Positions 1-48,661 of a DNA stretch of 64,000 nucleotides are shown piece by piece. The position numbers were made by a program, and so were the translations under genes. Numbering within the stretch: position 1 is the first letter of the stretch; each line of letters begins with the position of its first letter. Below the pieces are notes generated by a model. The model saw only the letters and a list, made by a program, of their open reading frames with translations. It did no database searches and had not been told where the DNA came from. The stretch spans positions 124,001 through 188,000 of the forward strand of contig JABSSW010000052.1 of NCBI GenBank assembly GCA_018902385.1. Direction: 5' to 3'. Source of the DNA: Physcia stellaris. Taxonomy: Eukaryota > Ascomycota > Lecanoromycetes > Caliciales > Physciaceae.

Positions 1-1
1 T

Positions 2-523
2 GAGGTCCAGACTATATTTTGCAGCGACAAAGAAGATATTCAGGTCAACGAGTGGCTAATTCCTAAAGGAAGCTTGATTGTTGTCCCAGCAGGAAAAGCC
101 CACATGGACAAGAACTTCTGGAACACCAGAAGCGGGCAATATCCTCTCGATCGGTTCTGGGCTGATCGATTTCTGTTTTACTCCGGCGATCCTCGGAGCG
201 GCCCGCGGAAGCATACTCACCCTAACAGCAAGAGCATTGACACGGGTAAAGAGGAATTCTCCTGCGAGAAGCCTAAGTTCGCGGCTTCGGGCTTGGCAGA
301 CTCGTTTATGCCTTATGGCATCGGGGAGAGAACTTGTCCCGGGCGTGGCTTTGCAAGGCGAGAGATTATTACATTTTGCGCGTTAGTCGTTGATCGTTAC
401 GACATTGAGTTTCCCCTGGAAAGGTTTGACCTCAGGACAACCACAGCCTTCTACGGAATAGGGACGCAGCGACTGAAAGGTAAGATTTCATTCAAGATCC
501 GGAAAAGAGTCAAAACAGGATGA
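2..523 (+). CDS. Cytochrome P450, C-terminal part (runs off the left edge)
   Basis: This is the last 173 codons of a heme-thiolate monooxygenase whose 5' part lies outside the window. The frame is open from base 2 to the stop at 521-523. The heme-binding loop is intact: FMPYGIGERTCPGRG fits FxxGxxxCxG, and its Cys is the axial heme ligand. Before it, PLDRFWADRFL corresponds to the PERF region that packs against the ERR triad. The ARREI stretch after the Cys is the start of the L helix. The ExxR helix and the membrane anchor are not visible because they lie upstream. The substrate cannot be inferred. A PDR transporter lies about 850 bp downstream on the same strand, a pairing common in secondary-metabolism or detoxification regions; a functional link is inference only. 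Nothing in this fragment looks broken. Confidence 0.9.
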   Translation, partial: EVQTIFCSDKEDIQVNEWLIPKGSLIVVPAGKAHMDKNFWNTRSGQYPLDRFWADRFLFYSGDPRSGPRKHTHPNSKSIDTGKEEFSCEKPKFAASGLADSFMPYGIGERTCPGRGFARREIITFCALVVDRYDIEFPLERFDLRTTTAFYGIGTQRLKGKISFKIRKRVKTG

Positions 524-1372
524 CTTTGGAGTTGGTCATCACCGTTATATCAAATTCCAATCAGTATGAGATCTCATCTTCCCCCAATGAAACAAACCTC
601 AATAGGTACCTTAGGTACCTTAATAACGTAAATTACACCAGATTAACTCTCATGTACGTATAGTGTGAGTGGGAGCTAGGTCCTCGATGCGAGTTCCGCG
701 AAAAACACGTATATTACACACCGTACGTACACTCTAGAGGCATGACTTGCGTGGTTCGGCTGATGCCAAGTCACACGCGCACTTTCTACCATAGAAATGT
801 ACCGACATTAAGAATCGATCATATCTTAGTCAGTCTATCGTAAAGTACGAGTTAGGTACTATCCCATGCACTGGCAATCCATGGTACTCATTCGGCTAAA
901 CCCTGAAAACGAGTACCACGCCAGTATGGGTTCTGCTGGCCTTGGCGAACGCCTTCCGTCTCAAATTTCGGTATGTAGTATGTACGCGTGCGTTGGCGAC
1001 TCCTTGCATTAGCTTGGTGATGGTCGTGATGACTGTGCATACGCTCGGCTGCACCCAGCGCCTCGTGAAACGGTCACGTTTCGAAAGGTTTCTTACAACA
1101 ATTCATTTATTGGTACACCGGGAATTCCAGGTCTAACTCCGTCGCAGCCGCTAATGGGACTTTGCTTCATTTTGGCTGCGATCAACCATGTCTCTTACTT
1201 GCCTTATTCTACAGGTCTACCGCAATCTGGCAATTGAGAGTATCCCGCTGTTACAGTGACCTTACTCTAACCCCACTCTGGTTGATCCACAAGTTGATGT
1301 CGGACTCTACAACGGGACAATATCGATAATAGTCTGAGAAACGTGCATATCTTTGGGGAAGATCTCATTGGT
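524..1372. other. Intergenic, P450 to ABC transporter
   Basis: No coding sequence recognised. Two adjoining 9-bp TAGGTACCT copies lie at about 603-621. The rest should hold the P450 terminator and the ABC transporter promoter, but I can point to no specific element. Confidence 0.5.
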
Positions 1373-4300: not shown

Positions 4301-5730
4301 TTTGACAAGCTCTTATTTATCCAGCAGGGTCGGCCGATTTACTTTGGAGATATTGGTCCAGGGTCTCGAACAGTTGTCGAGTATTTCAAAAGGGAAGGCA
4401 TCGCAGATTGCCCGTCTGACGCAAACCCTGCAGAATGGCTCATGGCTAATACTAGTCGTTCGGAAGATGCTACCTTAAATAGAGATTGGCCACATACCTG
4501 GGCAATATCTACTGAGAGACAGCAAATCAAAGAGTCAATTGTAGAGAGAAAAAGAAGGCTACGAGCATCAGCGAGTGATGTTCCACAGTTAAGCTCTAGG
4601 ACAGAGTTTGCTTCGACATACCTGCAACAACTTTGTCAGGTCACGAAAAGGAATTTCGAGCAAGATTGGCGCACACCTTCGTACCTGTATTCAAAGCTCT
4701 TTCTCGCCCTTGGCGCCGTAAGCATTCCTTCCTGACAATACGCGCCGCTGACTTAATGATACTTCTAGAGCTTAATCAACGGGTTTTCTTTCTACATGTC
4801 AGCTAATAGTCTGCAAGGAGTACAGAATCAGATTTTCTCCGTTTTTCTACTCTTCACTCTACACAGCAGCCTCGTTCAATTAATAATGCCACAGTTCCTC
4901 GAACGACGGTTACTATATGAGCTAACAGAGCGACCGTCGCGAACATACAGATGGGATGTTTTCATTTTGTCCAACGTTATATCGGAAATTCCGTCGCAAA
5001 GTGTATTGGCCATCATCCAGTTCATAACGTGGTACTACCCTGTCGGAATGTACAGGAATGCTCTTTCAGAGCATGATCTAAACGAGCGCAGTGGTCTTAT
5101 GTGCCTACTTTTATGGTCCTACATGATTTTTTCCTCGACATTTTCCCAGATGGTGGCAACAGTAATGCCTGATGCTGCAACTGGAATTAACATTTCTTCA
5201 TTGCTGTACACACTATCTCTCATATTCTGTGGGTGAGTTTGTGCAAGCTCTTTCCGACTTCCAAAGGCCAGGGCTTGGCTGACTGAAACATCAGAGTTCT
5301 AGTTGCACCTGACGCTCTCCCTCGCTTCTGGATATTCATGTATCGCTCCACACCAATCACATATTTTGTCAGTGCAATGGTCTCGACGGGGATTGCTGGT
5401 GTACAAGTACATTGCTCAGCCAAAGAGCTCGTGCGATTCGACCCTCCTCTTGGTCAAACCTGTGGAAATTATCTGCGAGGCTACATTGTCCAGGCCGGAG
5501 GCACTTTACTGAATCCCACAGCTGCACGGCAGTGTGAATTATGCCCGGTATCAACTACTGACAATGTCATTGCCCAGATCAAAGTGTTCTATCACGATCG
5601 CTGGATGGATCTTGGCCTTTCTCTAGTATACAGCATTATTAATGTGATTGGCGCCTTAGCGTTGTACTGGGCCTTCAGAGTTCCGAAAGGAGCCCGCCAC
5701 ACGATTAGCCGGCCCGGGATCTCCAAATAG
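1373..5730 (+). CDS. PDR-type (ABCG) full-size ABC transporter
   Basis: This is a plasma-membrane multidrug efflux pump of the fungal pleiotropic drug resistance family with (NBD-TMD)x2 order. Exons are 1373-4717, 4769-5232 and 5295-5730; all phases close, giving 1414 aa. The first in-frame ATG is at 1373. NBD1 has Walker A GRPGSGCTT (about residue 101), signature ISGGERKR (about 224) and the degenerate Walker B WDHGTRGLD, which is the usual asymmetric PDR state. NBD2 has Walker A GESGAGKTT (about 804), a linker-type signature LNIEQRKR (about 909) and Walker B LLLFLDEPTSGLD. Two six-helix membrane domains follow the NBDs. The N-terminus before NBD1, about 100 residues, is shorter than in many relatives, so an unseen upstream exon is possible. 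The gene is otherwise complete. Substrate is unknown; azoles, fungicides or the product of a local pathway are possible. Confidence 0.93.
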
Positions 5731-7222
5731 GCTGCTCCAGTATGAAAACAATTCTTGTCTAGATGTACGAATATAAAAAATTGTTTAGCGATGCACGTGG
5801 CAAAAGACATTCCGGATTACCGCCATCGCGGCGCTATTTGCTACAAGATAATCAAATGTCGATAAGATTGATACCAAATAGCCTCTACCTTCGCTTCATG
5901 CAGCTGTTGTTACCAGATGACGAGAAGTGAGACACGAGTCGTGTAAGTCCCTAAAAGACGTTGTCGGCGAGCGCAGTTCGCCCATGCCTTTCGTATGGTG
6001 CTCAGATCAAAATCAGGTGAGGCGCCCCTAGACGCAGATCTGACAGGAGGTTGGGCAAATTCCGGGCTCCAGCTCCCCTCACAAAATCTGCAAGCCCCAT
6101 CAATATCTCTTTTAGCGATTAGAGAAATGTGGCAAATATGGCCAGATTCGTACGTGGTCAACGCGGACCTGGCAAGCTATGGGGCCTGATTGCTGGTGTG
6201 ACCTCTGGGAAGCTATACGGTGGGTAAGCCTGCAATCCATCAGCCAAGGGTATATGCGGGTTCCTGTTGCTACGACACACAGATAACCATGGGATTATCA
6301 AGACTGTCGGTCTTGACCCCTCAGATGTAATGCCTTTCGCTCCCATAGGATCTCATTCGGTGTCCCTTCGTCCTCGGAACCAGGATGGAGTGACAGCAGA
6401 AGAGGTGGAATAAATGGGAAACCCACAAAGCACACTCCAATCAAGAGGCGTAGGCTTGGGTCTAGATTGGGTGGTAATGTGCTAGCGATGTCCATGGTCA
6501 GTGATTGTAAGAGTCATGGAAGATACTGTAGCTACCAAGGGCGCTTCATTTTATGTCTCACAGTCTCAGCGATCTGATTACTCGAAACCAAAGGCTTCAC
6601 CCGTAAGATACCGTTTCAGCTCGTATTGACTGTTTTGATAATTAAGACGTGCGAAAAGTTCGCCTTCATTTGAACTCTCTATGGATAGAGCAAGCTGCAT
6701 TGACGTTCATGTATGCGCGACCGTCTAATTGGAGGGTCAGCACACCCTTATTCGGTAGGTACTCCGTAAGGCGTAAAGTGCATGCTACGCCCCATGCATC
6801 TAGACTTGAACAGATGCCTGACTTCATACGAGGCGGTAGGCTAGGTCAAGTCTCCGGCAATCTCATGGCACAGCAGTGCTCCGATTCTCTTCGGTTCGCT
6901 TTCAGCTGACAAGCACAGCCTACTTGCATGTGCATCGCCGATCTCCTTCGAGCATCGTTGCTACATACGCATGTTGTCGATGGCTTGAAGTCGGATTTTC
7001 GAGGGAAATGCCTGGCCACAGAATTTTCTGGGTGCGGAGTTTCAGCCAATGGGTCACTGCCGCTCTACAGCCGGACTACTGAGAGGTGCTTGTTTTACAG
7101 TCTTTCGGTCTTATAAGATGACTAGTGGTCATACAATGGGCTCGTAGAGCGATGAAAAATCTATATACGCTCGTCTAAGCCGTCATCGGAAAGCTTTGGC
7201 TTCGTAGTCGCCCATTGCCAAT
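5731..7222. other. Gene-free interval
   Basis: About 1.5 kb of ordinary base composition. Only short overlapping frames without family resemblance occur. I see no RNA gene, repeat or mobile-element end here. Confidence 0.45.
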
Positions 7223-8597
7223 ATGACACCCTACGATAACTCTGGCCGCATCCACAAGCAAGCATTTTTGGTGAGTTACTGAAGCTATCCCAAGCCAAGC
7301 ATTGCTGCTCACTCAGTTATCAAGATTTCCAACCTAGTCCTGTTCGCTCTCTGCATGTGCAGTGTCTGCGCACGTTACTACATCCGCGTTTACATCCAAA
7401 AACAATTTTCCAGCGACGATGGAATCCTCCTGTTCGGCGTGGCATGCCTTATCGTAGCTATTGGTCTGCTCTTCAAATTCGCCGACAAGATGTATATTGT
7501 GGGAAGCCAGGAATCCGGCGACCTTATTGGTGTCCCGCTTCCAGGTGACTTTATCGAGCAAGCCTACGATTTTCAGAAACTTGTCACTGTTGCTCTCATC
7601 TTGACGTGGTTGACCATTGTGTCCGTCAAATTCAGCTACCTGTTTCTTTTCAGGAGGCTTATCGGAAGGATGCCGAAATTGATTGCATATTGGTGGTTTG
7701 CAGCTGTTTACAACGCGGTGATATCAACTTATGGTGCTATCGTATATGGAGTAGAATGTCCGCATTTCTACTCACTCAAAAATTGTAAGTCTTCACCTTG
7801 TCGAAGACCTTGTGTCCACCAGCCAACGCTTGTCTCAGTACAATGCATCTTTGGTAGAGGCTTAGCCAAGTCAATCGCATTCTCGGAAAGCCAAATGGTC
7901 CTTGATATTATTGGTGATCTTTTAAGTCAGTCATCTCAAAGATCTCGTATTAATTAACAGGGCCGCGTACTAAATATCATCGTCAGTTATTTTCATTCCT
8001 TGCCGACTTATCTGGTCTGTCAAGCTTCCATGGACCCAGAAGATTGCATTAGCCTCAACCTTATGTCTTACCATCCTAACCATCATGTGTACTATTGTAC
8101 GTATGGGTGGTATCCACACCGGCCACCCTGTTAAATCTATCGACTCTGTCTGGGAGACTTACTGGCAGTTTGTTGCGGCGAACATCGCAGTAGGAATGAC
8201 AGCAGCGACAGCGTTCCGTACCTTCTTCGTCAGTCGCAACGCTGACAATCATGACCAAGGTCAAGGTGCTCAGGATGATGATTGCAGGGAGACTTGGTAT
8301 GGCAAGAGCTGGAGACTCATGAGCTCCGTCTTCTCCACACGCTTATGGCACTCCTGGCGATCGAAGAATTATCCCCGCGGTTCAAGTGAAAGGGGCAGTG
8401 GTCGGGACGACTCACCTATGGAACTAAGACAACAGTTCCCGAGAGCTACATTAACAGGAATGAGGACATTCATTGGAAAACACGCAATATCACATTCGCA
8501 TGGCGCAAGCCAAATCATGCGCTCGGTCGGAGAGGAGGAGTTCCGTGACAGCTGGCCTTTATCTGCAGCGGCTAGAAAATCTCAGTATATTGTATAG
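7223..8597 (+). CDS. SAT4-type fungal rhodopsin-domain membrane protein
   Basis: This is a multi-pass integral membrane protein of the fungus-specific rhodopsin/SAT4 family; biochemical role is unknown. The model has exons 7223-7270, 7325-7784, 7839-7925 and 7987-8597, which close in phase to give 401 aa. The last three junctions are strong (GTAAGT/CTCAG and GTCAGT/GTCAG). The first intron needs a less usual CAAG acceptor, so the first 16 residues are the least certain part. Family marks are a first helix followed by RYYIRVYIQKQ, a DD pair (SSDDG), DIIGDLLI before a WSVKLPWTQK loop, and SIDSVWETYWQF preceding the last helix with TAATAFRTFF. A polar tail of about 110 residues follows. Paralogues often sit beside secondary-metabolism genes and some resemble PTH11-like receptors. 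No CFEM domain is fused to it, but a separate CFEM gene lies 1.35 kb downstream. Confidence 0.85.
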
Positions 8598-9949
8598 GTT
8601 TTTCCAGGCACAAGGAGGGCAATGGAGTATCGACCCCTTTTGGGATTAAATGCAGTGGTATGTATCACAGAAAACGCCGCTTTGGCAAAAAAAACCCCAT
8701 TACTTTTACATGTTCCACTGGTATATAGGAGTAATGGAGGGGACCCAATCGTACTGTACTGATTCGCAATAAGAGCCTACAAAGTAGTACAGTACGATTA
8801 CTACATCGACAAACCGGGGCTGGATCGGACTGTGGGTTTCTCATGTAAACAGAAACAGACATATAATGATAAAAAGGTGCTAAACCAACGCCCCGGCGGC
8901 CCGCTCGGCACACGGCTCATAAAGTAGTGTTCCAAGACAAGCAGCAGCGACTACTCGGAGTTGACTTCCATTCTTTTCCTGCTTACTTTATACGCGTTAG
9001 CCGGCTACTGTTCTCTTCAAAGGTCAGAAGAGTTGGCGAGTTTACGCCTCTTGCATCAGAACTCGGATTTCTCCGCTTATGACCGAGGATGCTCTAGGAC
9101 CGTCGTATACGTAGTGGACCAGACAGATTGAGGCTTAAATTACTCTAACGAAGCGTTTCGCTCAAATGTTTGAGTGTGGGTTCCGGGGAAACACTGAGTA
9201 CTCCAAAATGAATCTCAGCTGACCTCATGAGAGGCGTCGTAGATTGTGATACATACCTTAGTACGAGGAGTACATGACAGCACTCCAATGCAGGAGTTTA
9301 GCGCTCCTTTCTTGCATAACAATGGGGGCTTACTGTTTCACCAACCGAGCGCAGGACCCCCAATACATATTTGATGTCGGTCGTGGACCGCGCCCAGACT
9401 TGAGTCAGACAATGACACCCCTTCATTGCCTCATTTAGAATGCCTATTAGGTGTCACATTATTGCTGCACAGGATCCGATAGCTAGAACCGCTCCAAGCA
9501 TTTCGTGCATCAGGTCAAGTGGGCGAGGCAAGGCCTGGTCCACGCATACACACGTGTTGGATTGCCAATGATTGGAGTTGTCCGATGTACAATACCGACT
9601 GCAAGCTGATGCAGACATGGTATCCCCGGGTGTTCGCTCTGACAGCTTCCAAGATCGACGCCGTAGAGCCGCGCCGAGTGTGGCATCCTGAACAGTAGTA
9701 ACTCCTGTATCGAGGCTGAGAAGCACCCGTGGCACAGCCATGTTAGTATCCTTTGCTCTCGTCAATCCTCTCAGAAAGCTCCTCTGGCTGAGGCCCACTA
9801 CTTGGAGCTGCTCTGTATGTCTAGACAATCCGGAGATTATACAGCTCATGCCACTGATATCCTGACCTTTTCATTCATACCTCCTCGCGGCAACCATCCC
9901 TCTGGTATACTGGCCGCGATACTTCTTCGTCCTGGCCAATCTTACTGCA
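8598..9949. other. Gene-free interval with inverted repeats
   Basis: No supported gene. The part at about 8690-8800 holds short inverted repeats (see separate entry). A 131-codon antisense frame at 9454-9849 has no recognisable family and was not accepted. Confidence 0.45.
8747..8799. repeat. 14-bp perfect inverted repeat (hairpin)
   Basis: Arms AATCGTACTGTACT (8747-8760) and AGTACAGTACGATT (8786-8799) are exact reverse complements around a 25-nt loop. A smaller pair, CCATTACT and AGTAATGG, lies just upstream at about 8697-8737. The position is 150-200 bp beyond the SAT4-type stop, so a role in 3'-end formation or a relic of a small DNA element are both possible. Confidence 0.7.
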
Positions 9950-10694
9950 ATGCTTGACCAACTCTCTCACTCTTGGGCGATCATTGTCTTCACCCTCTCG
10001 CTTTCTGTTCTCGGCCAAGACTATTCCGACCTTCCCAAGTGCGCGGTGGGTCCTTCCAATTGCTGAGACGTTGAATCTCTCACCTTCGCTAAAGTACTTT
10101 TAGCAAGCTCCAGCGCTATCGAGCATCGGCTCGACGGGCTGCCAGCTCACGGACTTCGCGTGTATCTGTAAGGACCAAGACTTCATCAACTCGTTGATCC
10201 CAGTCATTGAGAAGCAATGCACGGCGAGCGAACTCCAAAGTGCGTAATTGTGAATCCTCCACCGTCTGTGAGCCTGCTAGTGCTCTGTCTCGCACTTCAA
10301 CTGTCGCTGGCGTGTTGTGGACAGGAATCAATCTGTGTTGCTCAATGGGAGAGGTCAGTCCACGCAGCGGAGAAGCTGATTTGAGGAATGCGAAACAGGT
10401 GTCCAAGCCTTTACCAACAAATTGTGCAACTCTGTGGGCGTACAAGTTACATCGCAACTAACGCCACAGCCATCAACTTCACCGATAAGCACGGAAGCCA
10501 CCTCTGGACCAGCTAGAGTAAGCTCTACTTCGTCGGTGGCAGCGGCGCCGACACCATCTGCAGGGACCACAAGTGTACCGACCTCCAGTGCAGCAGGAAG
10601 CGAAGCCAGTGTTCGTAACGGATACTCCATACAGCTGTTGTTGATAATGTGGACGTTCGGGGTAGCGTTGGCACGCTTGTGGTCCACACTCTGA
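9950..10694 (+). CDS. CFEM-domain GPI-anchored cell-surface protein
   Basis: A small secreted protein of the CFEM family; members act at the cell surface in heme/iron capture, adhesion or host interaction. Exons 9950-10045, 10104-10239 and 10399-10694 close in phase to give 175 aa. Residues 1-22 form a signal peptide ending near VLG. The CFEM core follows with Cys at 31, 45, 52, 54, 71 and 87 and the conserved Asp 49 in the LTDFACIC motif. A Ser/Thr/Pro-rich spacer (about 95-150) precedes a hydrophobic tail, the pattern of a GPI signal. Family members usually have eight cysteines; the second and sixth are absent here (QAPAL and LIPVI at their usual places), which may mean loss of one disulfide. 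The second intron (159 nt) is long for this locus, so a small extra exon is not excluded. Confidence 0.85.
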
Positions 10695-10963
10695 AAAGCC
10701 TTGAGTTGCGGGCGTCCGGAAAAACCTAAGAAGACATCTACTTGGTAATTATTGGGGAAGACCACCTACTCAGTCATGATAGAGTTCGGCAAGTTGTGGA
10801 CGTTTGTCGTGCTTTGCGCAGATTTGGTTGTGTTTTCATAAGTTTTGTAGGTCATACAAGGCGATGAACTCAGAAATCCTTTACTCTCTTAGTAGCTAGG
10901 CTGTTATTGTGACGTGTCATTCTTTGAGTCCTCCACCGTTGGCTGTGACACATTGGGCTTATT

Positions 10964-11503
10964 TCATTCGTGTAAGACATGCTGTAGATCATCCGCCAGT
11001 CCGCCCAACTCCTCCTTCCCGAACCCCCATAAGAACGCCTTCACCGCCTGCAACTGCTCGTTTCCCATTCCAGTCTTGTTTCTGGTGCAAATGTTGACCA
11101 CCGCAGGCGTGAAAAGCGACTTCTGCGCAAACACCACCATCCAGCCGCCCTCGTTCTCCGCAGCTGGGTTCTGGCTATGCCCCAAAATCTCCCACTGGCT
11201 TGTGACCAACTTCAACAAGCCGGTCCCACGCCAGGTCCACCCGCCCGGATTGGATGGAGAAGGTGTGTCTGTCCCACGCATAGTTTGTGATTTTTGAGAA
11301 TCTAGAGTTTGGTAGGTAATCAGATCGTCTAAGCGAGGTCGTGTATCATCTGACGCGTGAGAAAGAACGCTGTAGGTGAGAACGACGTTGCGCTTGTCTT
11401 TCCAGACTGGTGAAGTCGTCTGGGTAATGTACCACTGACCGACAAAATCGTCAACGGAAAGGAAGCCAGAAGTGACCAGAGATGTTTCTGATTCTGAGAA
11501 CAT
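10964..11503 (-). CDS. Small lipocalin-like hypothetical protein
   Basis: A single-exon frame of 179 codons starting at an ATG (11501-11503). The opening DDFVGQWYITQTTSPVW resembles the G-x-W start of lipocalin/calycin barrels. Regularly spaced hydrophobic strands follow (NVVLTYSVL, GTGLLKLVTSQWEILG, EGGWMVVFAQKSLFTPAVVNI), ending in an amphipathic helix. There is no signal peptide, so it is probably cytosolic. Uncharacterised fungal proteins of this size and pattern exist and a small-ligand-binding barrel is the likely fold, but that is inference from pattern. Codon use is ordinary although the AT-rich block starts about 100-300 bp upstream of its start codon, so the gene's promoter must lie in the transition zone. 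Confidence 0.7.
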   Translation of the reverse strand: MFSESETSLVTSGFLSVDDFVGQWYITQTTSPVWKDKRNVVLTYSVLSHASDDTRPRLDDLITYQTLDSQKSQTMRGTDTPSPSNPGGWTWRGTGLLKLVTSQWEILGHSQNPAAENEGGWMVVFAQKSLFTPAVVNICTRNKTGMGNEQLQAVKAFLWGFGKEELGGLADDLQHVLHE

Positions 11504-11820
11504 TGTTACGGGAAAGCGAAAAGCAGAGAGAAATAAGAATGTTGTTAATCATGAAATGTAAAAGTTGAGACGCACGATGTTCTTACTAAGGGAAAAAGTT
11601 TTTACTGATTTATGCGCTTAAATTCGATTAGCCGATTAGCCAGAAACACTGCTTTTTCGTAACATAGAATCAAAAGTGACTGTATTTAAGCCGATCTTGA
11701 GTCAATTGAGTCAACTTTGAGCAATAAATAGCAAGATTTAAGTCAATTAAGTCAACAATATTAAGTATTTAAGTCATTTAATGATCAAAAGCAATTTTTT
11801 TTTACTTAATTGTTCTTTAA
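11504..11820. other. Transition zone into AT-rich block
   Basis: GC falls progressively. ApG and CpT are still present here, for instance in several AAGTCAATT-like words between 11695 and 11775, and disappear by about 11860. It presumably contains the promoter of the minus-strand lipocalin-like gene. Confidence 0.6.
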
Positions 11821-12452
11821 TGTATGATACACGTATTATATTATAAATAACATCTTTCTATGTGAAAAATACGTGAATTTTTCAAAAATGAAATTATTTT
11901 TTTCATAACGCTGATAACGACGTCGTTACGCGTTTTTCGTTATTTTTTCTTGATTTTTCTTGACAACGAACATCAAAAAACGCGAAAACGTTAAATTTAA
12001 TTGAGATTTTTTCAATCAACGTCGAATTTCTATTATTGATTATCGACTTTTGACGTTTCACGTTTGTTTAAATATTTAATTTTATTGATTTAATTGATTT
12101 ACGTCGAGAAAATTGTTCGATTGATTTTGACATTCGAAATCGATTTCGAATCGTTTAATCAAATAATCAAAATCATTGTTTTTCATTGTTTCAAATCAAC
12201 ACGAATTCGTCAAAAACAAATTTCAAACGATTGAAATTTGTTTTAAATCGTTTATTGTCGATTCAAAATTTACATTTGAAACATTTAATTGATTTAAAAT
12301 GTTTCAAAATTCATTAAATAATTTCAACATTTTTAATTCGTTGAATTATGAATGTTTTTATGTTTTTTTCACGTTGTTTCGTGCGCGTTTTGTATTAATG
12401 TTCGTTTTCGTTTTTTTGATGATTTTTTTATTCATGTCATTTTTTTCGTTTT

Positions 12453-12544
12453 GAATATTCATATGATTTTTTTTATTTGAATATTCATATGATTTTTTTT
12501 ATTTAAATATTTATATCGTTTTTTTTATTTGAATATTCATATTG
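12453..12544. repeat. 26-bp tandem repeat, about 3.5 copies
   Basis: Units beginning GAATATTCATATGATT with a T-rich second half start at 12453, 12479, 12505 (diverged) and 12531, giving a constant 26-bp period. It lies inside the AT-rich block. Confidence 0.75.
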
Positions 12545-15500
12545 TCATTTGAATTTCTGAATCATTGATCATTTGTATTGTTTTTGTAATATCAAATTTG
12601 TTTTATTTTTTTTATTTTGCACACGTTTTGAATTTTTTGTTTTACGATAATCGTTAACGTTATTTTTATCATTGTATTTATTGATTCGTATTAAATTATC
12701 AATCAAATTTTGATTGATTGTTTTTATCAAACACGAAATGCAAAATTTGTATTCAATATATATTAAATCGTTTTCATTATCACATTATTTCGCATCGCTA
12801 TTGATTTTTTAAAATGTCTTTTATAGTTCATTTGCAATTTTCTTTTCATTGAATTGTAATTTTCATTCGTTTTGATGAATCAGAATTTTCGATGCAAAAT
12901 ATATTCAAATATTTTTTCGTTTTGTAAATTCATTTTTTTACATCATGTTTGTCAATTTAAATCGTACATGAACGTTCATTCATGATCGTTTTGTTATTCA
13001 ATAAAATGATAAATTTCATTTTTTTCGACGATTCGATTTCAAAATTTGCGTTTTTTATATTTTGTTATTTATGATTGAACAATAAACACATTGACATCGT
13101 ATGTGTGAATTCGATTTATCAATTTTTCGACACGTTTTTCAATTTTTTCGTTTTCGTATTGAATTCGTCTTTTTTTATTTCAGATTGTTTTTTTTGTTTT
13201 CAATGAATCGATATTTGAATTTTCGACAATTGATGTCACGCGATCATTGTTTGTAAAAAATTTGAAAACGAAACGATATTTTAAAATCGTGTCAAATTTT
13301 TTTTTCAAAAAACATGATATGATTTTATTGTAATTGACATTAATATTTCGATTGACGATTTCATCAATCAAATTTGAATTGTTGATATCAATTTGACAAT
13401 TGTTAAACGTAAAAATTCGTGAAATAATTGTTTTGTTGTTTCGCAAAATTTTGATTGTTTCGATCGAATAATCACATTTCAATAAAATAATTTTTAATGT
13501 TTCATTGTTTTTTGCGTTGATTGTGATTCGATTTTTGATTTTGTTTTGAAAATATTTGCAAAATTCGTTTTGAATTTGAAAATTCAAATTTTTTCATGTT
13601 AACATGTAAAATTCGTAATTGTTTATTGCATATCAATATTTTAAAAATCGAAACGACGTGTATTATATTTTTCATTGTTAAATTTTCGAATGTTATGTTT
13701 GTTTTTTTATCATTCGCAAAAAAAAAATTAATCGCATGATGTATGATTGTGATTACAAAAAATATCATAACAAAACGAAATTTATTGAATATGTTTTTGA
13801 TGTACATTTGAAAATCGAAATCATTTTTGAAATTTTTGAAAAATAAATCGTAAATCGCGATAATTATAATGTCGACAATAAATGATATAAATTACATAAA
13901 TATTTGTAAATTTGTATCATAATTGTTGACACGCAATTATTTATTTTCGATTCAAAATTTTCATAATTAAAACGAATAAAAACATGATTATGTAATAATT
14001 TCGCAATCAATTGATGAAAATTAACAATGATTTCGAATTTATAATACGAAATCATTATGTTTTTGATTTTGTAAATTGCATTAAATCGAAAAATGTCGAT
14101 TGAATCGTACATTTGTGTTGACGTTAATGTATTTACATATATTCGACGTAAATAATTTTACAATTCGCGTTTCGAAATTTTGCGATACATTTATAATTTT
14201 CGAATGTCGTTTTATGTTGCGTTCAAACATTCGTTTGCATTTTTGTTATATTTTCAAAATAAAATCGTTAATCACATCGAAATTATGTTTTGTTTAAACG
14301 TTTAATTTGATTTTGATACATTTATTGAATATTAATATTTGAAAATAAAAAAAATTCGTTTTATCAAATATGCATGTTCATCATTAAAAAAAAATTTATT
14401 TTTTCGTCGTTTGATAATTTTTCAATATTATCGTGTAATCGAAATTTCGTTCGAACATTCATGTGACAAATAATTTTGTCGAAAAAAATGTCGATTTATA
14501 TCACGTCGATATTTTCGTTTGTTCGTTTTTGATAAAAAAATGAATTCGTTTAATTTGTTTCGATTTGATAACAATTGTTTTTTCACGATCGATATAAAAA
14601 TGTTTGAAATATTGATTGATATCGAAATTTTAAATTGTAAACAATTTAATACATTGTTTGATATTTTTTGAATAATATGATTTACAACAATAATTAAACG
14701 TCGTTTTGATGTGATATTCATGTTTTTTTTTTCGAATTTTTATTGTTGTTATCGTTTTTTGTATCGATTTCGTCGTTCGATAAATTTTTGAAATTATTCG
14801 AAATAATTTTGCGTTTTTTGAATGATTTTTGTACATTTTTTTTTTGTTATATTGTTTAAATATATTTTATTATATGCGTGTAAATGATCAATTTGTTTTT
14901 GAATCAACAACATCATTTGATTGAACAATTTATTTCGTGAACAATTAATTGCAACATTGATTATCGCAAAAAAACAATTTCGAATATCGATTGTGAATGT
15001 TGTTTGTGAAATTTTGCATTGTCGATTTTCGCGTTTTTGAATCGATTTATTTTGTTCGAAATCATTGAATTAATCGATCGAAAAAATCGTGAATCGAAAT
15101 CATTATGTTGAATTTTGATATAAAAATACAAAAATTGAAATGTAAATTTGTTACAATCAACGCGACATCAAATATATATCAAAAAAAAACAATGTAATTT
15201 AACGCGAAATGTTTCTGATTGTGATTGACGAAATTAATTGAACAAAATTTTCGTCGTCGATTAAAACAACGATTGTTCGTTTTGATTGTTAAATTATTTT
15301 GTCGTTTAACGTGTTTCGCGAAAATTTACATTTATTTAATTTTGAACGTGTTTTTGTCATGTATACGAACGTGTCGTTTATTTTTCGTTTGATTGATTTT
15401 TGTATTTTGCAAAATTGATATCGAAATCGATCAATTATTAACACAATTTCAAATGTATTAAATTATTGTTAATTTCAAAATGATTTTTTTTATTGTTAAA

Positions 15501-17881
15501 ATTCGATTATGACGATCAACAACGACAAAAAAATGAAATATTATTTTTTGTTATATTGATATTCATATTTTTAACAAAAATTTTTCGTCAAATTTCGAAT
15601 TTAAATATTTGAATAAACGATAAATGAAATAACGTCAATGATATTTGTCGTAATCGTTGTTTTTCATAATTTGTATTTTGCGATATTTTTCGAAATAATC
15701 AAAATTGAAAACACAATTGCGAAAATTAACGAATTATTACAAAGATTTGATCGCGACAATTCAAAATTTTCGCAACACGATTGTTGTGAATATTAATTTG
15801 AAATTCGAAATATGACAAAATATTCGAAATAAAATCAAATCAACAAACGTGATATTTCGATCGCATTTGAATCGATTTGAACGTTTATAAACAATTTTCG
15901 ATTGTGTTTAATAATTTCAACAACAATTAAATGATGATAAAAATAAATATCGAAATAATTTAAATACAATTTATGAATCGTGCATTCGCGAAATTTTTTT
16001 GCATTCGAATACGATATTCGAAATTTTTACAATTGACGAAATTGTAAAAAATCATATATTGTTTGACATCGAATCAGATTTAAATTAAATTCAAATTTGT
16101 TTTCAATCATTTTTCAATGTTTGTCAATTTTTTTAATTTTGTTTGAATATATTTGTAAACAATTTTCGTTTTCGATTTTTAAAAATGAAAAAAAAACGAA
16201 ATAAATGTTTAACGAAAAATAAACAATAAAAAAAATTGAAAAACGAATTGAAAACGAAAAAAAGTGAAAATTTTGAAAACGAAAAACGAAAAAAAAAAAT
16301 CGAATTAAAAACGTTAAAAAAAAAAAAAAAAAATTGAAAACGAATAAAAAAATTTGAAAAAATAAAAATCGTTGTCGTTGTCACGATTACAAAAATATAA
16401 TCGCAAATTGATACAAAAATTGATATTTTGAATCAAATTGATCGCAAAATATTAATTTTTGAAAAATTGTCGTCGATTTTTTTACAATTAAATACGTTAA
16501 ATTGATACAAATTTAAATATGTTTTTTTTAAAAACATGATTTATTTTGATTTAATTAATAAAAATTTTGTAAATAACGAAATTCATAAAAATACATTTCG
16601 AAAATCAATTTTTCAAAAACGAAAAAAATCGTTCGTTGATTTTTGACAATTTTTCAATTTATATAATTCAAACACAATGTATGAATTTCGATTCAAAATT
16701 CATATTTACATTTTTGTTTCAATATTTACACAAATATATTAAATTTCAAATGTTTCATCGTGATTTTATCGATAAAAATAATTGAAATAATTATGTTTTT
16801 TGATCGACACATTTCGTTATAACAATTTTTTTAAATGAAAATGTGACAATATCGAAAACGATATTGAATGATTAAAATTTTATGATAAAATTGATATTGC
16901 ACGATTTTTTTGATAATATCAAATTTGCGCGTTTTCGTTTGCAATTGTTGTTGATTTTTTGAATTCAATAAAATAAATATGTTTTTTTCATGTTGAATCG
17001 ACATTGTCGAATACGATAAAATATTGTTTTTTGATTGTGATAAAAATCGATTACAATTTTTTTTTGATATTAAATGATTAAATTTGTCATTTAATATTTT
17101 ATTTCGAATCAATTTCTTTTTCAAAAAAACGTATATTATTTTGTACGTTTTTTTGTTTATTTTTAAATTAATACGAAAACAAAATTTGTTTAATAATTCA
17201 CGTTCAATTTTTTCAAATTTTTTCAAAAAAATATTAAATCAAAATAATTATTGTGTTCGATATTTTCGATTGTTATAATATAATTCGACAACGTACGAAC
17301 GCGTCGAAACGTATTTTAAAACAATTAATATATAAATTTGTACAAATAATGTTGTGTTTAATCGTCAAATTAAATTTGTGTAACAACGATAAATTTTTTT
17401 CGAAATTGAAATATTCGATTTATTTAACGATTAATTTGAAAATCGACGAATAAAAAATAATATACAAATTGTTCATACAATTGTCAAAAAAATTAAAATT
17501 TTTATCAAACGCGATTAATCGCGTTCGATTAAATTAATTTCAATTAAATTGTTTCAAATATGTAAAATCAAAACGTCGAATTGAACGTACATCGAATTCA
17601 AAATTTGATAAAATTAATAATCAATTAAAATCGTTATTTTATCATATCGAAAATTAAAGTCGAAATTCGACTTGACGCATTCAAAAATCAAATTTTTTAT
17701 ATATGTTTTTGCAAATTTTATGTATTTGTTTTTCAATTTCGATATTCTTTAATTATGTAATAATATTATATTTTTGCATAAAATTTCACATTATATCGAA
17801 ATCATTTTTTTCATTTTTTCACGTTACGCGAAACATTCAAATAAACAAAACTTTTTACAATCAAATTCAATAAACGAATAG

Positions 17882-17972
17882 AAACATAATAGATTCAATT
17901 TGATTTCGAAACGAAAAAAAAAACATAATAAATTCGTTTGAATTGAAAACGAAACATAATAAATTCGTTTGT
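17882..17972. repeat. Imperfect short direct repeats
   Basis: The word AAACATAATAAATTCGTTTG or a close variant occurs at 17882, 17921 and 17952, with unequal spacing (39 and 31 bp). It sits in one of the patches that retain some ApG. Confidence 0.5.
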
Positions 17973-20900
17973 TTTGTTTTAAAGAACGTTCAAAACAAAC
18001 GAATTTTCGAAATTTCGATATCACAAAAAAATTTTTTTATTCTTATTTGACGAATCAGCAATTCAACTTTTATTTGAAAATCAAAAATTATCAAATCAAA
18101 TATTAAAAAACATCAACAAACACGATTATTTAAACATTCAATAATTTCATCAAAAAAACAAATATCAGAAATTTTATTCAACATCACACATAGTTTTTAT
18201 CATTTTGAAAAATTCGAAGTATTGAAATTTATTTAAGTTTTCGCAAATTTTTTTTTTTTTTTTTTTTTCATCAATTATTTGAATTCAAATTATCATGATT
18301 TTTTCAAGTTTTTTTTCGAAATCAATCTGAAAACGATTTTTTTAACGAAATCAAAAATTGAACGTGTATATATTTTAATAAAAATAAAAATTTCGAACAA
18401 TCATTGAAAAAATCGATATTTTTTAATTATAAATTTCAATCAGAAACGAATCACAATTTGATGAAAATAATTTTCAAAATTGTTAATTCAATAAACAATT
18501 TTTTCGAAACAAAATTTCAAAACGATTTTAAACATTTTGACGAATTATTGAATTATTTTCGAAATTTTTCGACGAAATCGAAAAAAAATTCGCAATTCGA
18601 ATTTGAAATTTTCAAATAAAAACGTTTGAAAATCAAAAAATTTCGAATCATAACAAGAAAAATATTGAAATCAATTCGTCGAAATTTTGCGCAATTAATT
18701 AAAATCGAAACGTTTATTGTTCAAAAAACGATACAATTATTTTTTCATCAGCGAATACGCGAAAATGTTAAAAAAAACGAATAAAAAAAAAATCATTGAA
18801 CATGCAAATAAAATTTGAAAAATTTTTATGTTCGATTGAAAAATCGTTTTGCATTCAAAAATTCGTTCAAAAACATTTTGTTTTTTTTATTGAAATTTTT
18901 TTGCAACATCGAAAATTCAAATTTTCGATTAATATGACATTTGAAAAAATAAATGCATAAATAAATTTGTAAAATAATCAAAAAACGCAAACGATGATTT
19001 CAAAAATTTTCGCAATTATGATTGAACGAAAAATAAATCAACAAAACAATTCGATATTCGACGTGATATTTTCAACGTCATTTTTTCGACGAACAAAAAC
19101 AAATTTTCAAATTGAATAAAAATACATTTATTCAAATCATTTTCGAAACGTTCGTCGTCAATACGATAATTTGAAAATGAAATTATTAACGAATTTTTCA
19201 ACGAATTTTATTTCGAATTTTTTTGTTAACAAATTAAATATTCAAAAAAACGAAAAACAAATAAAATTCACGATTTAAAAAAAAATCATCAAAAATTCAA
19301 CATCGACGTTTTTGAAAAAAATTTTTTGAAAATTATTTAAAAAAATTTCAAAAATGAATAACAAACATCATCGTATCAAAACAACAATATTAAAATTAAT
19401 TTTTTTAAAATTCAAATCGTCGATCAACAAAAAATTTTCGAATTCGTAATAAACGAATAATTAAAAATTTGAAAACGTTTCGTATACACATATTTTCGAA
19501 AAAAACGTACAAAATTGTCATCGTTCGTTTTAATTTGAAAAATTTGTCGCAAATATTATTAAAAAAATTAAACATTGATAAAAAAATGTCAAACGTCAAA
19601 CAAATTTTTTGAATGAATTAAAATTATCAAAAAAAATTTCAATTTCAAATTTTTTTCAAAACGATTTTCGAACAATCAAAAATAATATAAATTTCGATAA
19701 AATTACATTCGAAAATCGAAAAATTAACAATTTTTTTCGAAAAAAAAAAATTATCAAAATTTGTTACGAAATTTTCAAATGAATATTATTAACGAATTTG
19801 CATAAATTTTTAATTAAAAAATAAATTTTAACAATCGAAAAATCATGATTGCATGATTTAATTGATATAAATGATTTTAAATATGTTTTCATTAATCGAA
19901 AAAATTTTAACACAAAAAATGTGTCATAAATTAAAATTAAAAAATATTTCTATATTCAAAAAAATTTTAATTTTCGAAAAAAAAAATTAAATTTATTATT
20001 TATCAAATATTGTTCGAAAATACGATACAAAATCATTCAATAATTTTCGTTTCATTTGTTTATTATTAAAATAAAACAAAATTCGTTGATTTTGAAATAA
20101 ATCAATCAAACACGAAATGAGAAAAATATTGATAAAAATTTTAAATTTTTTTTCATTTCAAATTTTTGAAAAATAATTGATTTTTTTTTTTTCACGTTTG
20201 ACGAATAATTTCAAAAATTGTAATTTAATTCGAAAAAATTGCAACAATCGAATAAAACGTTTTATTTATTATTTTAACGATTTTCAACGTCGTTTTTCGA
20301 AAACGTTCAAAAATATCAAATATTTCAAAAACGATTCGTTTCGATAATTTTTCGAATAATTTTTTCGTTTTCGTTGTGAAAAACGAAAAAAAACGAACAA
20401 AAAAAAATTTTGATTTGAATTTCAAAATCATTGAAAAAATTCAAAAAAAAAATTTTTTTCAAATAAATTCTTCATCAAAAACGTTTGAAAATTATCATTT
20501 TTATTTTTTTTTTGATCAACGTATCAATAAAAAATGTCGATTTTCAAAAATTTACGTCGATTTTCGACGATTCAAAATCGACAATTTTCGAAATGAAAAA
20601 TGACGAACAAAATTTCGATTTTCGACAATTTTTACATCAAAACGAACATTTATTCGATTCAATTTCGAATCGTCGTTTCGATTTACGACAATTTTCATAT
20701 TGTTGAAATTATCAACGATTTTCATTTCAAAAATCGTATTTTTAACATTTTTTTATTATGAAATTGATAAAACAAATGTTTGCGTCGAATATATTTTTAT
20801 CGATAAATTAACAAACAACGCGTCAAATATGATTTTCAACAATATGTCAATTTTCATTAAATATATTATTTTGATCAAAATGCGTCAATTATTTGTTGAA

Positions 20901-23018
20901 CGAAAATTGAACGAAAATTGTCAATTATTTTTTTTGTCGCGTTTGAATTTTTGATTGCGTTTAAATTTCAACAATTCAATTATTATTGATACGAATTTAC
21001 GAAAAAATATACGATAAATTTGCAATTTCGATTGTATTCAATTCGTTGTTTTTTCAAATTAATAATTATTGTATTTCGTTTTTGTTCAATTCACATTTAT
21101 TCATATAATCAATTAATATCAATTATTGTTATTTCAAATATGTTCGTTGTTTTTGAACATGTTAATAATCGTTTATTTTTTTATTCGTTTTTTCAACGTC
21201 GTTTATCAAACGAAATTTTATTGATGCAACAACAAATTTTATATTTTTGAAAAAACACAAATGAAAAATCGAATATTCATTGATTGCAAAATTTGATCAA
21301 AATTTGCGTTTGTTATTTTCAAAACAAAATCGAAATTATCATGTTGACAAAAACGAAAATTATAACAATAAATCACAAATTATTTCAAAAAATTTACGTT
21401 CGTTAAATCGAAAACGAAATCGATATCGTAATGTTATCACGAATTCGAAAAATGATTTTGTGTCACAATTTATTTCAAATGTTTTTTCGAATAATAACAA
21501 TTTCGAATCAATTTCGTTTGACGTCGATATCGAATCAAAATTTCATTTCATGTCGACAAAAAATCAAAACGCGCATACATCAAAATCAATCGACAAAACA
21601 AATGCAAATGACGAAAATGATAAAAAATCAAACGAAAAAAACGATGAAAAAACGATAATAAATAAATATATTTACAACGACAAACAATATGTGTACACGA
21701 TTTGTTGATCACGAAAATTAAATTTAATCAAAAAAATTTTAATGAAAAATTGCGAACACGACGAATTGTGAACGCAAATTTTTCGATTTGTTAAATACAA
21801 TTTAAACAATATTGAAAACAATTCGTGTATTAAAATATCAAAATTTAAAAAAAAATTATCAATATCAATGTTTAACGATGTTCACGATATTGCGATTCAT
21901 GTTAAATAAACAAAAAAACGAAATTATCAATGCGAAAAAATTCGAAATGAAAAAAATTTATTTGTATTTTATTTGATAATTTTTTTTTATTCAATTGACA
22001 TCGTCGAAATTCAAATCGTAAAAACATTAATTATGTTTTTCACGTACAAAAACATGATCGCAAATCAAAACGATATTCAAAAAAAAATGATGTCAATCGT
22101 TGAAAAAAAATCGTTTTCGTAATTCAAAAAACGAAAATCATTGCATAAAAAAATTGTGATACACATACATGTATAATTTTATTAATTCGTTTTTATAAAT
22201 GCGAATTTTCGTGAATGAATTAATATTAATTATTATGTTTTCGACAATAATTTTGAATTAAAAAAAAACATTGAAAAATTTATCGATAAAAATGCAAAAA
22301 ACAAATAATCGAATGTTTTCATAATCGTTTATAAAATTTATGATAAAAATGTCGTCAAAATTTCGAAATGAAAACAAAAATTGATCGATATTCGATTATC
22401 AATATTTATTCAATTGAACGAAAATGAACGTTTCGATTCAAACGCGTCATTAATTTGACATAAAAAATTTCAAAAATATATTTTGAATGCGTTAATCAAA
22501 AACTATTACGTTCGCAAATATTTTCAATCGAATTCGTCGAAATTCATAATAATCATAACGATTTTTTCATATAATAAATATGTACAAATTTATTTAATGT
22601 TCAACGAACACGAATATTATTTCGAAACGAAATTGAACAAATTGAAACACGTCAAAAATATTTTATTAATGTGTTCGATTATAACGATTATCAATAAAAC
22701 GCATTTCATACGCGACAAAAATTTCGATTATTACGATTTAATTAAAAAAATTCAACAAAATTGTAATTACAACGTGAAAATCGTAATTTTGATCGAAATT
22801 TCGTTCGACAAACGATTTTTCGATGATTTTGCAATGTTTAAAATTATACAATATAACGCGAAATGAATCAAAAAAAATTTGACAACATTAAATAAAAACG
22901 TTATAATTCAATTTGACAACGCGTACATAAAATTCGAAAAACAAATAAAAAAATTTTCGTCGTATAAACAAATTCGTCAAATGATCGATGATTTGTTTCA
23001 AATTTTCAACGATATTTT

Positions 23019-23207
23019 TGTCAGAAATCGTGTCTGACTAAAAAATAAACAAATAACAAAACGAAAATATTTGATTTAAAGAACAAATATTTACATGAAA
23101 ATCGAATGTCAAAAGTAAAAATGTGTGTCAAATCATCACTAATCTCGATATGAATTTTCGCTGATAAAATAAAATTTCAATCGAAATTCTCAAACATGTT
23201 CGTAACA
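23019..23207. repeat. LTR-like direct repeat, copy 1
   Basis: About 189 bp with TG...CA ends. It shares the early word ATCGTGTCTGACTA and the late word AAACATGTT with copy 2; similarity by eye is about 85% over the first half. Confidence 0.6.
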
Positions 23208-24751
23208 TTATTTTTTCGTTTTTTTCAAACTTCGTCTCGAAGCGATTATTCATTTTTTCTATCGATCGACATTGCAAAAAAATTCGTTGACTGTGATTCA
23301 AATATTTGTTTGAACATAATTGACGTTGAAAGTTTCAAAACAAATGTGATAAACGTGAAAAAATAAATTCGAAAACAAAAAAGAAAAAGCGAGAACAAAA
23401 TATATGCGAAAATCACGAAAATGAAAATCTTGATTGAAAATCTTGTTGAATTGATACGAGAAATATTTGCAAATTAATATAATGAAACGATCGATTTTTC
23501 AAAACAAACAGAAACAAAAACAACAAAACGATATCGATTTCGCAAACGTATGTTGTTTCAAACTTTTCGAATTTGAATTTTTCGAGTTTTTATTAATCGA
23601 CGCGTTCTGATTGATTGCAGATTTTGAACAGAACAAAATGTTGACGCATCGACGATTGACAAAAAATTACGAAAAAGACGAATTTGATTTGATCGTGCAA
23701 CAGATTTGCATTGATTGTTGTTTTTCATTTCTTCATGTCATTTGCTTTCGTATCGTTTGTGTGTAAAAAATTCATTTACATTGATGTTGATTGCGAAAAT
23801 GTAAAAAATCGAACGCATACGTTTTTGATGTCGTTGTAACGAACTCATTGAAATCGATGTACGAGCCCGTTCATAAAACGTCATTGAAGCAAACTTATTA
23901 GTCGTTGTAACGAATTCATTGAGATCGTTGAAACAGACTCACTAAAACGAACGAAACGAAACGAAGCGTAATTCAAATTTTTTTGTTTGAAATTTTGAGT
24001 GATTGTTTGTTGATTTGATGTGAAATTGTTATGTGTGATTTTTATTTTTCTTTTCAACAAGCGATGTTTCAACGCTTAATAAGAAGACGTAAATTGTAAA
24101 AATCGTTAAATGAATGTCGAAAATGTTCAAGCAAGAAAATCGACTATTGACTTGTTAATAGAATTTTCATTTCTCATCACGATGAATTGATTGATTTTCA
24201 GAACAAGAAAATCAACGATTGATTGTCATTATCGTTGATTCACGATCATTTTCGCAGATTCACGATGCGTCAAATGAAAATGAAATTCAATTATCGTTTT
24301 CAAAGAAAAAATTTTTTCATTAACGCAAATTTCATTTCGACAATTGTTTCATTGACGATTTTTTTTTGATTCGCGTATTTTTACGAAAAATTTTCGATTT
24401 TCGTTTTTGAAAACTTGCGTATTTTCATTGATTTGACGATTTTCTTTAATTACTTCGCGTATCTTTAAAAGCATTTTGACGATTTTATTTTGTTTATTCG
24501 CGTATTTCGACGAGCAATCTGTTTCAATGCAAAGCGTTTAATCGAGTGTCATTTAGTTTCGCAAAATTCAGAGCGAGAAATCTGCTGTGCAAAAGACAAT
24601 GAATCATCGTCATTGCGAATTAATTGAAAAATTTCGTGTTGAAAATGTGCGATCGTCACGAGTTGTTTCGATTTTGTTTTTTTTTACTCGCTGATCGTAT
24701 GATAGCGAATGTGAAATTTACATCGTTCGTCACGATGAAAATCAAATATAA

Positions 24752-24944
24752 TGTCAAAAATCGTGTCTGACTAGAAGAAAAAAAGATAACAAATACGAGA
24801 ATATTTGATTTAGAAAACAAATATTTTCATGAAAATCGAATATCAAAATAAAAATAACGTCAAGTTTCAAATCGCGCTAATTTCGATAAAAATTTTCGCT
24901 GATAAGATAAAATCTCAATCGAACGTTCAAACATGTTTGTAACG
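24752..24944. repeat. LTR-like direct repeat, copy 2
   Basis: About 193 bp, same orientation as copy 1 and co-linear with it through its whole length. Strong enough similarity to be the same family. Confidence 0.6.
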
Positions 24945-25905
24945 CGAACATTCAAATAATTGAAAATTTGTGATTTTTAATAACACGAACGAAAATATCA
25001 TACAATCGATTTTTAATTTTTCGAAATAAACGTTTCAAAATTTGAAATATATTTGATATCGACAAATTGTTTTTTCGATTTCATTATTCAATTGAATTAT
25101 CGTTTTTTTTTGTGAACGAACAAACGTGAAAAATGTTTCGTCGTCATCGAAAAAATACATCAACGAAATTTTAAAATTTTTTTTTTTTTTTCGTTGTTTG
25201 AATTTTTCGTTTTTTTTATCGGGAAATCAAGGCAATTCGCAATTGATTTTGTTTTTTGCAATTTAACGTCGAAAAACAAATTTTTTTGATCGTTTTTTTG
25301 CGTTTCTTTTTTCGCTTCGTTTTCGACGAAATTTTCGACGATACGTTTGCAATGATCGTGTTTTTTTGTCGACGATTTTCGCACAAATTTTTGTATATCA
25401 CGTTTTCGCAATCGCGATATCGAAAAAAAAAAAAAAAAAATTTTCGATATCGCGAATTTCGATTTCAGCGTCGATTTGTTTTTCGATTTTTTTTTGACGA
25501 CGAATTTCATTGTTTTTGATTTTTGACAATTTTTTTCGTTTTTTCGAATTTTACATTTGAGAATTGGAAATCAAAATTCGTGACGTTTCGATGATCGACA
25601 AATTGATCGAAACGAATAAAATTACAAAAAACGACGAGAAAATATCAAAAAAATAAAAAATGTTCGAAACATCAAAAGACAATATCACAATCAAAAAATC
25701 AAAATTCGATTCATGAAAAATAAAAATGTAACGTTGATGCAATTTCATTATATGCGTTCGTTTGATTTTTCATTTAATACATTATGCATCAAAACAGTGA
25801 CACGTCACGCGTTATTCGCGAATTGATCAATAAAAAAATTTACATCAAAATCACAATTAAACGAAATATATTGAGTTTCATTGATTTGCAATTGTCGTGA
25901 TTGAC

Positions 25906-25927
25906 AATTCTGGCATTTGCCAGAATT
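25906..25927. repeat. Palindrome at right edge of the AT-rich block
   Basis: Perfect 10-bp arms AATTCTGGCA and TGCCAGAATT flank TT. Immediately to the left, ATTGTC and GACAAT form a second small inverted repeat (25891-25908). Normal composition starts within about 15 bp to the right. Confidence 0.7.
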
Positions 25928-26129
25928 TTCCATGATTTTGGTGGGGGACTCGGCAGACTAGCGGCACTTTCTGGATCCAGCACAGATTTACGAAATCGAC
26001 GATAACGTCACCCTACCTCCCTACCTACCTCTAACTTCTGTGCTTATCTAGTGATCCCCAAACTCATTGAGCAACACAACGTGCAATTGCAAGCTGGAAC
26101 CACCGTAAACCTCCACGGCGATCTCTACC

Positions 26130-48554: not shown

Positions 48555-48661
48555 GACCAATCGCATCGATTTGCGGCCGCCACGCTAGCGCCGGGACCAA
48601 TCGCACTGATTTGCGGCCGCCACGCTAGCGCCGCGACCAATCGCAAGGAGTTGCGATCGCC
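48555..48661 (+). repeat. 40-bp CCAAT repeat array, left arm
   Basis: About 2.7 copies of a GC-rich 40-bp unit. The CCAAT words start at 48557, 48597 and 48637, exactly 40 bp apart. Each unit carries CCAATCGCA, then TTGCGGCCGC and CACGCTAGCGCCG. Forty is not a multiple of three, so the array is not a protein repeat. Confidence 0.85.

Follow-up and report, generated by a model that had tools for sequence, protein, structure and literature searches.

Repeat-induced point mutation (RIP) in fungi produces C:G to T:A transitions on both strands and usually targets mainly C before A. As far as the available excerpts of the sources go, the order of targets in Neurospora crassa is CpA>CpT>CpG>CpC, and T. 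reesei likewise ranks CpC last (PMC5496416); the published limits of the two common RIP indices are a TpA/ApT of at least 0.89 and a (CpA+TpG)/(ApC+GpT) of at most 1.03. Here, we describe a block of apparently dead repeats in Physcia stellaris, located in a 64,000-nucleotide stretch of contig JABSSW010000052.1 (the window, to which all positions refer), where over about 14 kb, from approximately 11.9 to 25.905 kb, CpC and CpT are nearly gone and CpA and CpG are retained.

Several described systems share part of this pattern. In the accessible portions of the respective reports, Botrytis, Sclerotinia and Magnaporthe show CpT signatures alongside CpA, with a RID motif proposed as the cause (PMC4352252), five CpT-labelled families of Colletotrichum truncatum have TpA/ApT values of 1.61-1.67, and both CpA and CpT are changed in Anisogramma. 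The novelty of the present block is lessened by reports that one survey counts CpT to TpT among the dominant changes in aligned sequences of RIP-capable fungi (PMC7882544), that CpT change outweighs CpA change in Neurospora Tad1 according to RIPCAL (PMC2621366), that CpC to TpT double changes occur in Monilinia, and that CpC single-nucleotide polymorphisms are the most frequent by mean distance in Rhizoctonia, though its authors stress CpG. For Stagonospora nodorum, abundant CpT change in short ribosomal DNA (rDNA) repeats was described with no evidence of RIP at CpA, and the authors doubt that RIP is responsible (PMC2621366). The DNA methyltransferase DIM-2 is reported to methylate all CpN and to prefer CpT (PMC13297926). 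The mutational signature SBS11, attributed to temozolomide and O6-methylguanine, consists of C>T changes before C and before T; in a reconstituted system it arises on template G only and is removed by MGMT (PMC12556801). In the literature searched on RIP and fungal C-to-T change, partly available as excerpts and covering few subscription papers, we did not find mutation restricted to C before a pyrimidine (CpY) with CpC as the top target and CpA and CpG spared; an earlier report elsewhere cannot be excluded. The accessible Blastomyces literature contained nothing on mutation context, and 'CPC' in a Ramichloridium source turned out to be a strain number.

For each pyrimidine on both strands, the C share, C/(C+T), was determined by 3′ neighbour, with 48 kb of flanking DNA (50% G+C) as the baseline. 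In 1-kb bins of the plus strand, CpC and GpG are absent from all 11 bins between 12,001 and 23,000, which contain 0-6 CpT, 0-9 ApG, 44-69 CpA and 41-62 CpG per kb; the flank bins (1-11,000 and 26,001-64,000) contain 16-115 CpC and 41-93 CpT. Over positions 12,101-25,900, C is present at 6 of 1690 sites before C and at 135 of 5694 before T, but at 1536 of 3422 before A (0.449) and 1456 of 2992 before G (0.487), and the corresponding flank shares are 0.451, 0.507, 0.605 and 0.448. These counts confirm that the C-to-T loss falls mainly in the CpY context, where it is close to saturation and affects both strands. They agree with an earlier note on this DNA, which had observed that C is followed almost only by A or G on either strand. 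The sub-blocks and further features are listed in Table 1.

Table 1. Features in and around the mutated block; fractions give the sites at which C is kept.
Feature	Positions	Strand	Remarks
Left shoulder, from normal flank to saturated block	11,501-12,249		partial loss, CpC first, CpT later
Saturated CpY-depleted sub-block	12,250-23,018		CpC 0/1234, CpT 36/4505, CpA 1175/2793, CpG 1060/2235, both strands
Less mutated unit between LTR-like repeats (1.9 kb)	23,019-24,944		CpC 2/291, CpT 89/739, CpA 240/422, CpG 234/474
LTR-like repeat, left copy (189 bases)	23,019-23,207		direct repeat with 24,752-24,944
LTR-like repeat, right copy (193 bases)	24,752-24,944		direct repeat with 23,019-23,207
Right CpY-depleted sub-block	24,945-25,905		CpC 4/140, CpT 9/392, CpA 104/184, CpG 140/244
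Putative coding relic, open if TGA is read as tryptophan	21,169-21,906 and 22,309-23,076	+	one frame, weak RNY bias

The context rule was further scrutinized with a forward model, in which flank DNA was altered in silico so that T replaced each C with a 3′ pyrimidine and A replaced each G with a 5′ purine. The resulting G+C content of 0.243 is close to the 0.227 of the block, and the predicted and observed dinucleotides per kb are similar for AA (203 and 201), AT (133 and 140), GA (66 and 60), TC (64 and 62) and CG (54.5 and 52.8). Moreover, we compared 31 one-neighbour rules, namely 16 on the 3′ base (no change among them) and 15 on the 5′ base, with the composition of the saturated sub-block. 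The CpY rule gave the lowest divergence (0.021), followed by CpT alone (0.167); all 15 rules on the 5′ base fitted less well (the best at 0.213) and were rejected, and no change (0.529), CpG alone (0.668) and CpA alone (1.01) were further off. C-to-T change at CpY close to saturation and on either strand, as proposed in the earlier note, is thus supported, CpY being the best of the 31 rules. The bases at positions -1 and +2 had no clear effect on C survival (p = 0.11 and 0.07), and surviving sites formed no strand runs in excess of the purine/pyrimidine (R/Y) order in the two main sub-blocks; in the left shoulder the same test was borderline (p = 0.057 with the R/Y order kept). Ultraviolet damage is ruled out by the abundance of TpCpA (787) and TpCpG (810) at 12,101-25,800 on both strands, and an artefact of one-strand conversion is ruled out by the presence of the change on both strands.

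Within CpY, the two targets differ. Survival of CpC is below that of CpT at 12,250-23,018 (p = 0.0003) and at 23,019-24,944 (p = 1.6e-11). In the latter unit, the minus log survival relative to the flank is 4.2 (3.1-8.4) for CpC, 1.43 (1.23-1.68) for CpT, 0.06 (-0.06 to 0.20) for CpA and -0.09 (-0.20 to 0.02) for CpG; in the saturated sub-block it is 4.18 for CpT, 0.36 for CpA and -0.06 for CpG, the value for CpC being set by a floor. The order of targets is therefore CpC > CpT >> CpA, CpG, with the lead of CpC over CpT coming from the two larger sub-blocks. Apparently, CpA is nearly and CpG wholly spared. The earlier note had both dinucleotides survive, which holds for CpG; before A, the C share is 0.605 in the flank and 0.42 in the saturated part; either CpA was partly hit there or the starting sequence was different.

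The few CC/GG steps surviving within 23-25.9 kb lie mostly in two small clusters (25,221-25,232, 25,566 and 23,866-23,868). Such clustering is odd for the best target, and later change or gene conversion is possible.

The dose of mutation is not uniform along the block. Between 23,019 and 24,944, a unit that retains more CpT is bounded by a pair of long terminal repeat (LTR)-like direct repeats, the ends of which were set by us and both copies of which begin with TGTCA. Surviving CpT/ApG sites are lacking from 22,504 to 23,022, are frequent up to 24,914 and are lacking again up to 25,229; the dose hence changes at both ends of the unit, with steps at 23,019 and after 24,914. In this unit, C remains at 89 of 739 CpT sites. 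When aligned, the two copies show 163 matches, 15 transitions, 8 transversions and 10 gap columns, and the transitions comprise 10 at CpT/ApG, 4 at CpA/CpG (one being the last base of the repeat) and 1 in a mixed context. Thus, 10 of 14 CpT sites differ between the copies compared with 4 of 32 sites at which C precedes a purine (CpR; Fisher p = 0.00016), or p = 0.0003 with the mixed site assigned to CpR. For this one pair, the changes follow the 3′ base as the earlier note would have it. We read the unit as an LTR-type insertion that entered an older saturated tract later and received a lower dose. Two scans of viral_contigs with patterns derived from the LTR-like repeats gave 0 matches.

The earlier note had placed the block at 11,821-25,930, which is roughly right. 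On the right, the edge is sharp at 25,906, where an unmutated perfect palindrome of 22 bases (10-base arms and a 2-base spacer; 25,906-25,927) is followed by normal composition; possibly, the palindrome represents the end of an element. On the left, the transition is gradual: at 11,501-11,700, 7 of 32 CpC and 24 of 77 CpT sites are kept, and at 11,701-12,000 none of 30 and 17 of 123, respectively. This shoulder could be due to spreading from the repeat, and natural AT-richness may contribute, with CpG at 4 of 27 at 11,701-11,900.

As RIP usually targets mainly C before A and the block has lost CpC and CpT, a standard RIP test would miss it. In line with this, TpA/ApT and (CpA+TpG)/(ApC+GpT) amount to 0.51/1.41, 0.42/1.28 and 0.35/1.25 in the three sub-blocks, and to 0.78/1.20 and 0.67/1.28 in the flanks. 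None of the sub-blocks is flagged, as the earlier note had anticipated, and its estimate of about 4 TpA to 9 ApT falls in the observed range. The C:G to T:A transitions on both strands are those of RIP; a preference for CpA and index values within the published limits are lacking, and TpA/ApT of the block even lies below that of the flanks. Likewise, the joint change of CpT and CpA that marks CpT-signature RIP is not seen, the CpA share being 0.42-0.57 compared with 0.605 in the flank.

Taken together, these data make it probable that the block was shaped by a RIP-like mutator with a 3′-pyrimidine rule, which caused near-saturating C:G to T:A change in old transposon-like repeats. Such an activity would be restricted, on both strands, to C with a 3′ pyrimidine and would prefer CpC to CpT; its trigger would be repeat homology, it would act in the sexual cycle, and the enzyme might be related to the Masc1/RID or DIM-2 class and have a changed target site. 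The change of dose at either end of the LTR-like unit partly supports the description as RIP-like in the earlier note; the CpA preference and the RIP indices do not follow. We therefore regard the block as RIP-like in action and do not yet file it as RIP. By analogy, the partial CpT preference reported in known fungi, as far as the accessible accounts describe it, may count as a precedent.

Several observations weigh against this interpretation. The right sub-block shows no excess loss of CpC over CpT (4/140 versus 9/392 kept). The forward model predicts 44 TpA per kb, but the block contains 68, and CpA and TpG are at 56 and 55 per kb instead of the predicted 67 and 67; this misfit would fit a weak activity on CpA or a different starting composition. 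Moreover, the flank baseline takes in genes, so that the composition from which the repeats started is an assumption. Neither the open stretches nor the six whole frames of the block revealed a transposon domain, and no target-site duplication was seen by eye at the LTR-like pair, so that the pair is perhaps not one intact insertion.

The same order of targets could also stem from a repeat-directed defence mutator outside the RID/DIM-2 methyltransferase system, possibly acting on G after a purine, which we consider a minor though serious possibility. A cytidine deaminase that acts on repeat DNA with a 3′-pyrimidine preference is a separate candidate. It would account for near-saturation, for the change on both strands and for the missing long-range context; we nevertheless find it unlikely, given that familiar DNA deaminases read the 5′ base and every 5′-base rule was inferior to CpY, and that survivors in both main sub-blocks form no more strand runs than the R/Y order gives.

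Alternatively, the damaged base could be G, a possibility outside the interpretation of the earlier note. A repeat-directed agent or enzyme would then alter guanine after a 5′ purine, for example by formation of O6-methylguanine, and yield G to A at RpG. In the two larger sub-blocks GpG is hit more than ApG, as would fit an effect of the 5′ purine, and the context equals that of SBS11, which in the accessible account arises on template G only and is removed by MGMT (PMC12556801). In the block, though, CpG is undiminished while CpT is almost lost, and a bounded tract with a sharp edge requires targeting. We know of no targeted guanine-altering enzyme, and the bias of chemical alkylation towards a 5′ purine is no more than several-fold; plain alkylation is in addition disfavoured because CpG is spared and the tract is bounded and near saturation. 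This explanation thus appears rather doubtful to us.

It is improbable that every C was attacked and C before a purine was protected or repaired, for instance through methylation or through a thymine glycosylase that works on TpR. The end pattern would be identical and from sequence alone indistinguishable, but two activities with exactly complementary contexts would be required, and CpA is slightly reduced in the saturated part where CpG is not. Passive slow decay of methylated CpT and CpC in heterochromatin, with no active mutator, would be compatible with the preference of Neurospora DIM-2 for CpT among all CpN, according to the accessible part of that report (PMC13297926). That CpC is depleted more than any other and CpG is untouched is a misfit for a CpN-wide methyltransferase, and two differing doses lie side by side, which renders passive decay very improbable. 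Finally, a sequencing, conversion or assembly artefact, or foreign DNA with a natural bias, hardly deserves credit: a single assembly was examined, but both strands are changed within one sequence, cytosine ahead of purines keeps a share equal or close to that of the flank, and a shoulder as well as a less mutated unit exist.

Ten open stretches of the block, read with TGA as tryptophan, were scanned against Pfam at E values up to 1, and none matched above the family cut-off; the best match, DUF6532 at 13,406-13,891 on the minus strand (E = 7.8e-4), was rejected as sub-threshold with 19.8 bits versus 24. The six whole frames of the block gave no match at E 0.05, a motif scan for reverse transcriptase- and integrase-like signatures gave no convincing match, and Rfam at the gathering score and a tRNA scan revealed nothing in the whole window. 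The putative coding relic has no family match, and a PDB search of its second part yielded a single match (E = 0.087). A weak purine-any base-pyrimidine (RNY) bias is present at approximately 21.3-22.8 kb; the R/Y period-3 power exceeds 5 in none of 45 block windows as opposed to 18.5% of 162 flank windows. With TGA as tryptophan, 51 open stretches of at least 100 amino acids are found in the block, compared with means of 24, 37 and 38 in simulations of Markov order 1, 2 and 3, of which 0, 1 and 2 of 100 reached 51. The longest, with 256 amino acids, was equalled in 7, 20 and 20 of 100 simulations, respectively. Under the standard code there are 9 such stretches against simulated means of 1.9-3.5, and none of 100 simulations reached 9. 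According to these simulations, a coding ancestry of the block is possible, though weakly supported.

A search of the block against the flanks in R/Y letters gave four matches (scores 35-41, 53-82 bases; no null run), and beyond these short matches no unmutated relative of the block was found there. Within the block, the same search returned the LTR-like pair, a tandem array and two weak inverted matches. The array comprises about four copies of a 26-base unit at 12,429-12,542.

In the flanks, 11 of 20 reading frames matched a Pfam family and 9 none. The families include cytochrome P450, a PDR-type ABC transporter, signal peptide peptidase, an RNase PH protein and hexokinase, the nearest PDB chains of the last being named Glucokinase-1, as well as two GNAT/cyclophilin-type proteins, protein kinase parts, a GDI domain and a C2H2 zinc finger. 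Judging by these genes, the DNA looks like that of a filamentous ascomycete. The minus-strand zinc-finger frame contains a TGC triplet array (57,333-57,433). In addition, GC-rich direct and inverted repeats with a CGATTGG-like core cluster in unmutated DNA at 48,554-48,971, their arms being about 65 bases long and up to 94% complementary.

The CpY change has consequences for coding sequences and for surveys. It removes the codons for proline (CCN), glycine (GGN) and tryptophan, converting TGG to TGA, and CAA, CAG and CGA escape conversion to stops. At 13,200-23,000, counted on both strands and at every position, CCN, GGN and TGG are absent, and TAG occurs 5, TGA 540 and TAA 670 times. Since CpY transitions keep the purine or pyrimidine class, an R/Y alphabet still allows dead elements to be compared. 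Surveys for RIP use the TpA/ApT and CpA/TpG indices, and CpY-mutated genomes may therefore have been scored as being without repeat mutation. The strict purine/pyrimidine switch at position +1 moreover offers a natural comparison for the target determinant in RID, DIM-2 or another enzyme, a question that was posed, in the accessible part of that work, with the RID motif tied to CpT (Amselem 2015, PMC4352252).

Among the known systems, SBS11 has the same C>T context as the block, namely CpC and CpT, or G>A with a purine 5′ of G on the opposite strand. It differs in being chemical damage with the lesion on G, whereas here a bounded repeat tract is changed near saturation; the change is not spread over all DNA, as the sharp right edge and the normal flanks indicate. 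DIM-2 resembles the inferred activity in its non-CG, CpT-preferring action in heterochromatin and differs in methylating all CpN, with no lead of CpC in what is accessible of the report (PMC13297926). CpT is a main target here as it is in the CpT-signature RIP of Botrytis, Sclerotinia, Magnaporthe, C. truncatum and Anisogramma; in the available descriptions, however, the species that change CpT also change CpA, and TpA/ApT values are high, compared with 0.35-0.51 in the block. The nearest precedent we found for CpT without CpA is provided by the short rDNA repeats of S. nodorum, for which the accessible text names only CpT, with neither a lead of CpC nor saturation. Compared with RIP in N. crassa, for which the same restriction of sources applies, CpC and CpA swap ranks and CpG is lowest in the block; common to both are the C:G to T:A change on both strands, the near-saturated AT-rich tracts and the transposon-like repeats in which they arise.

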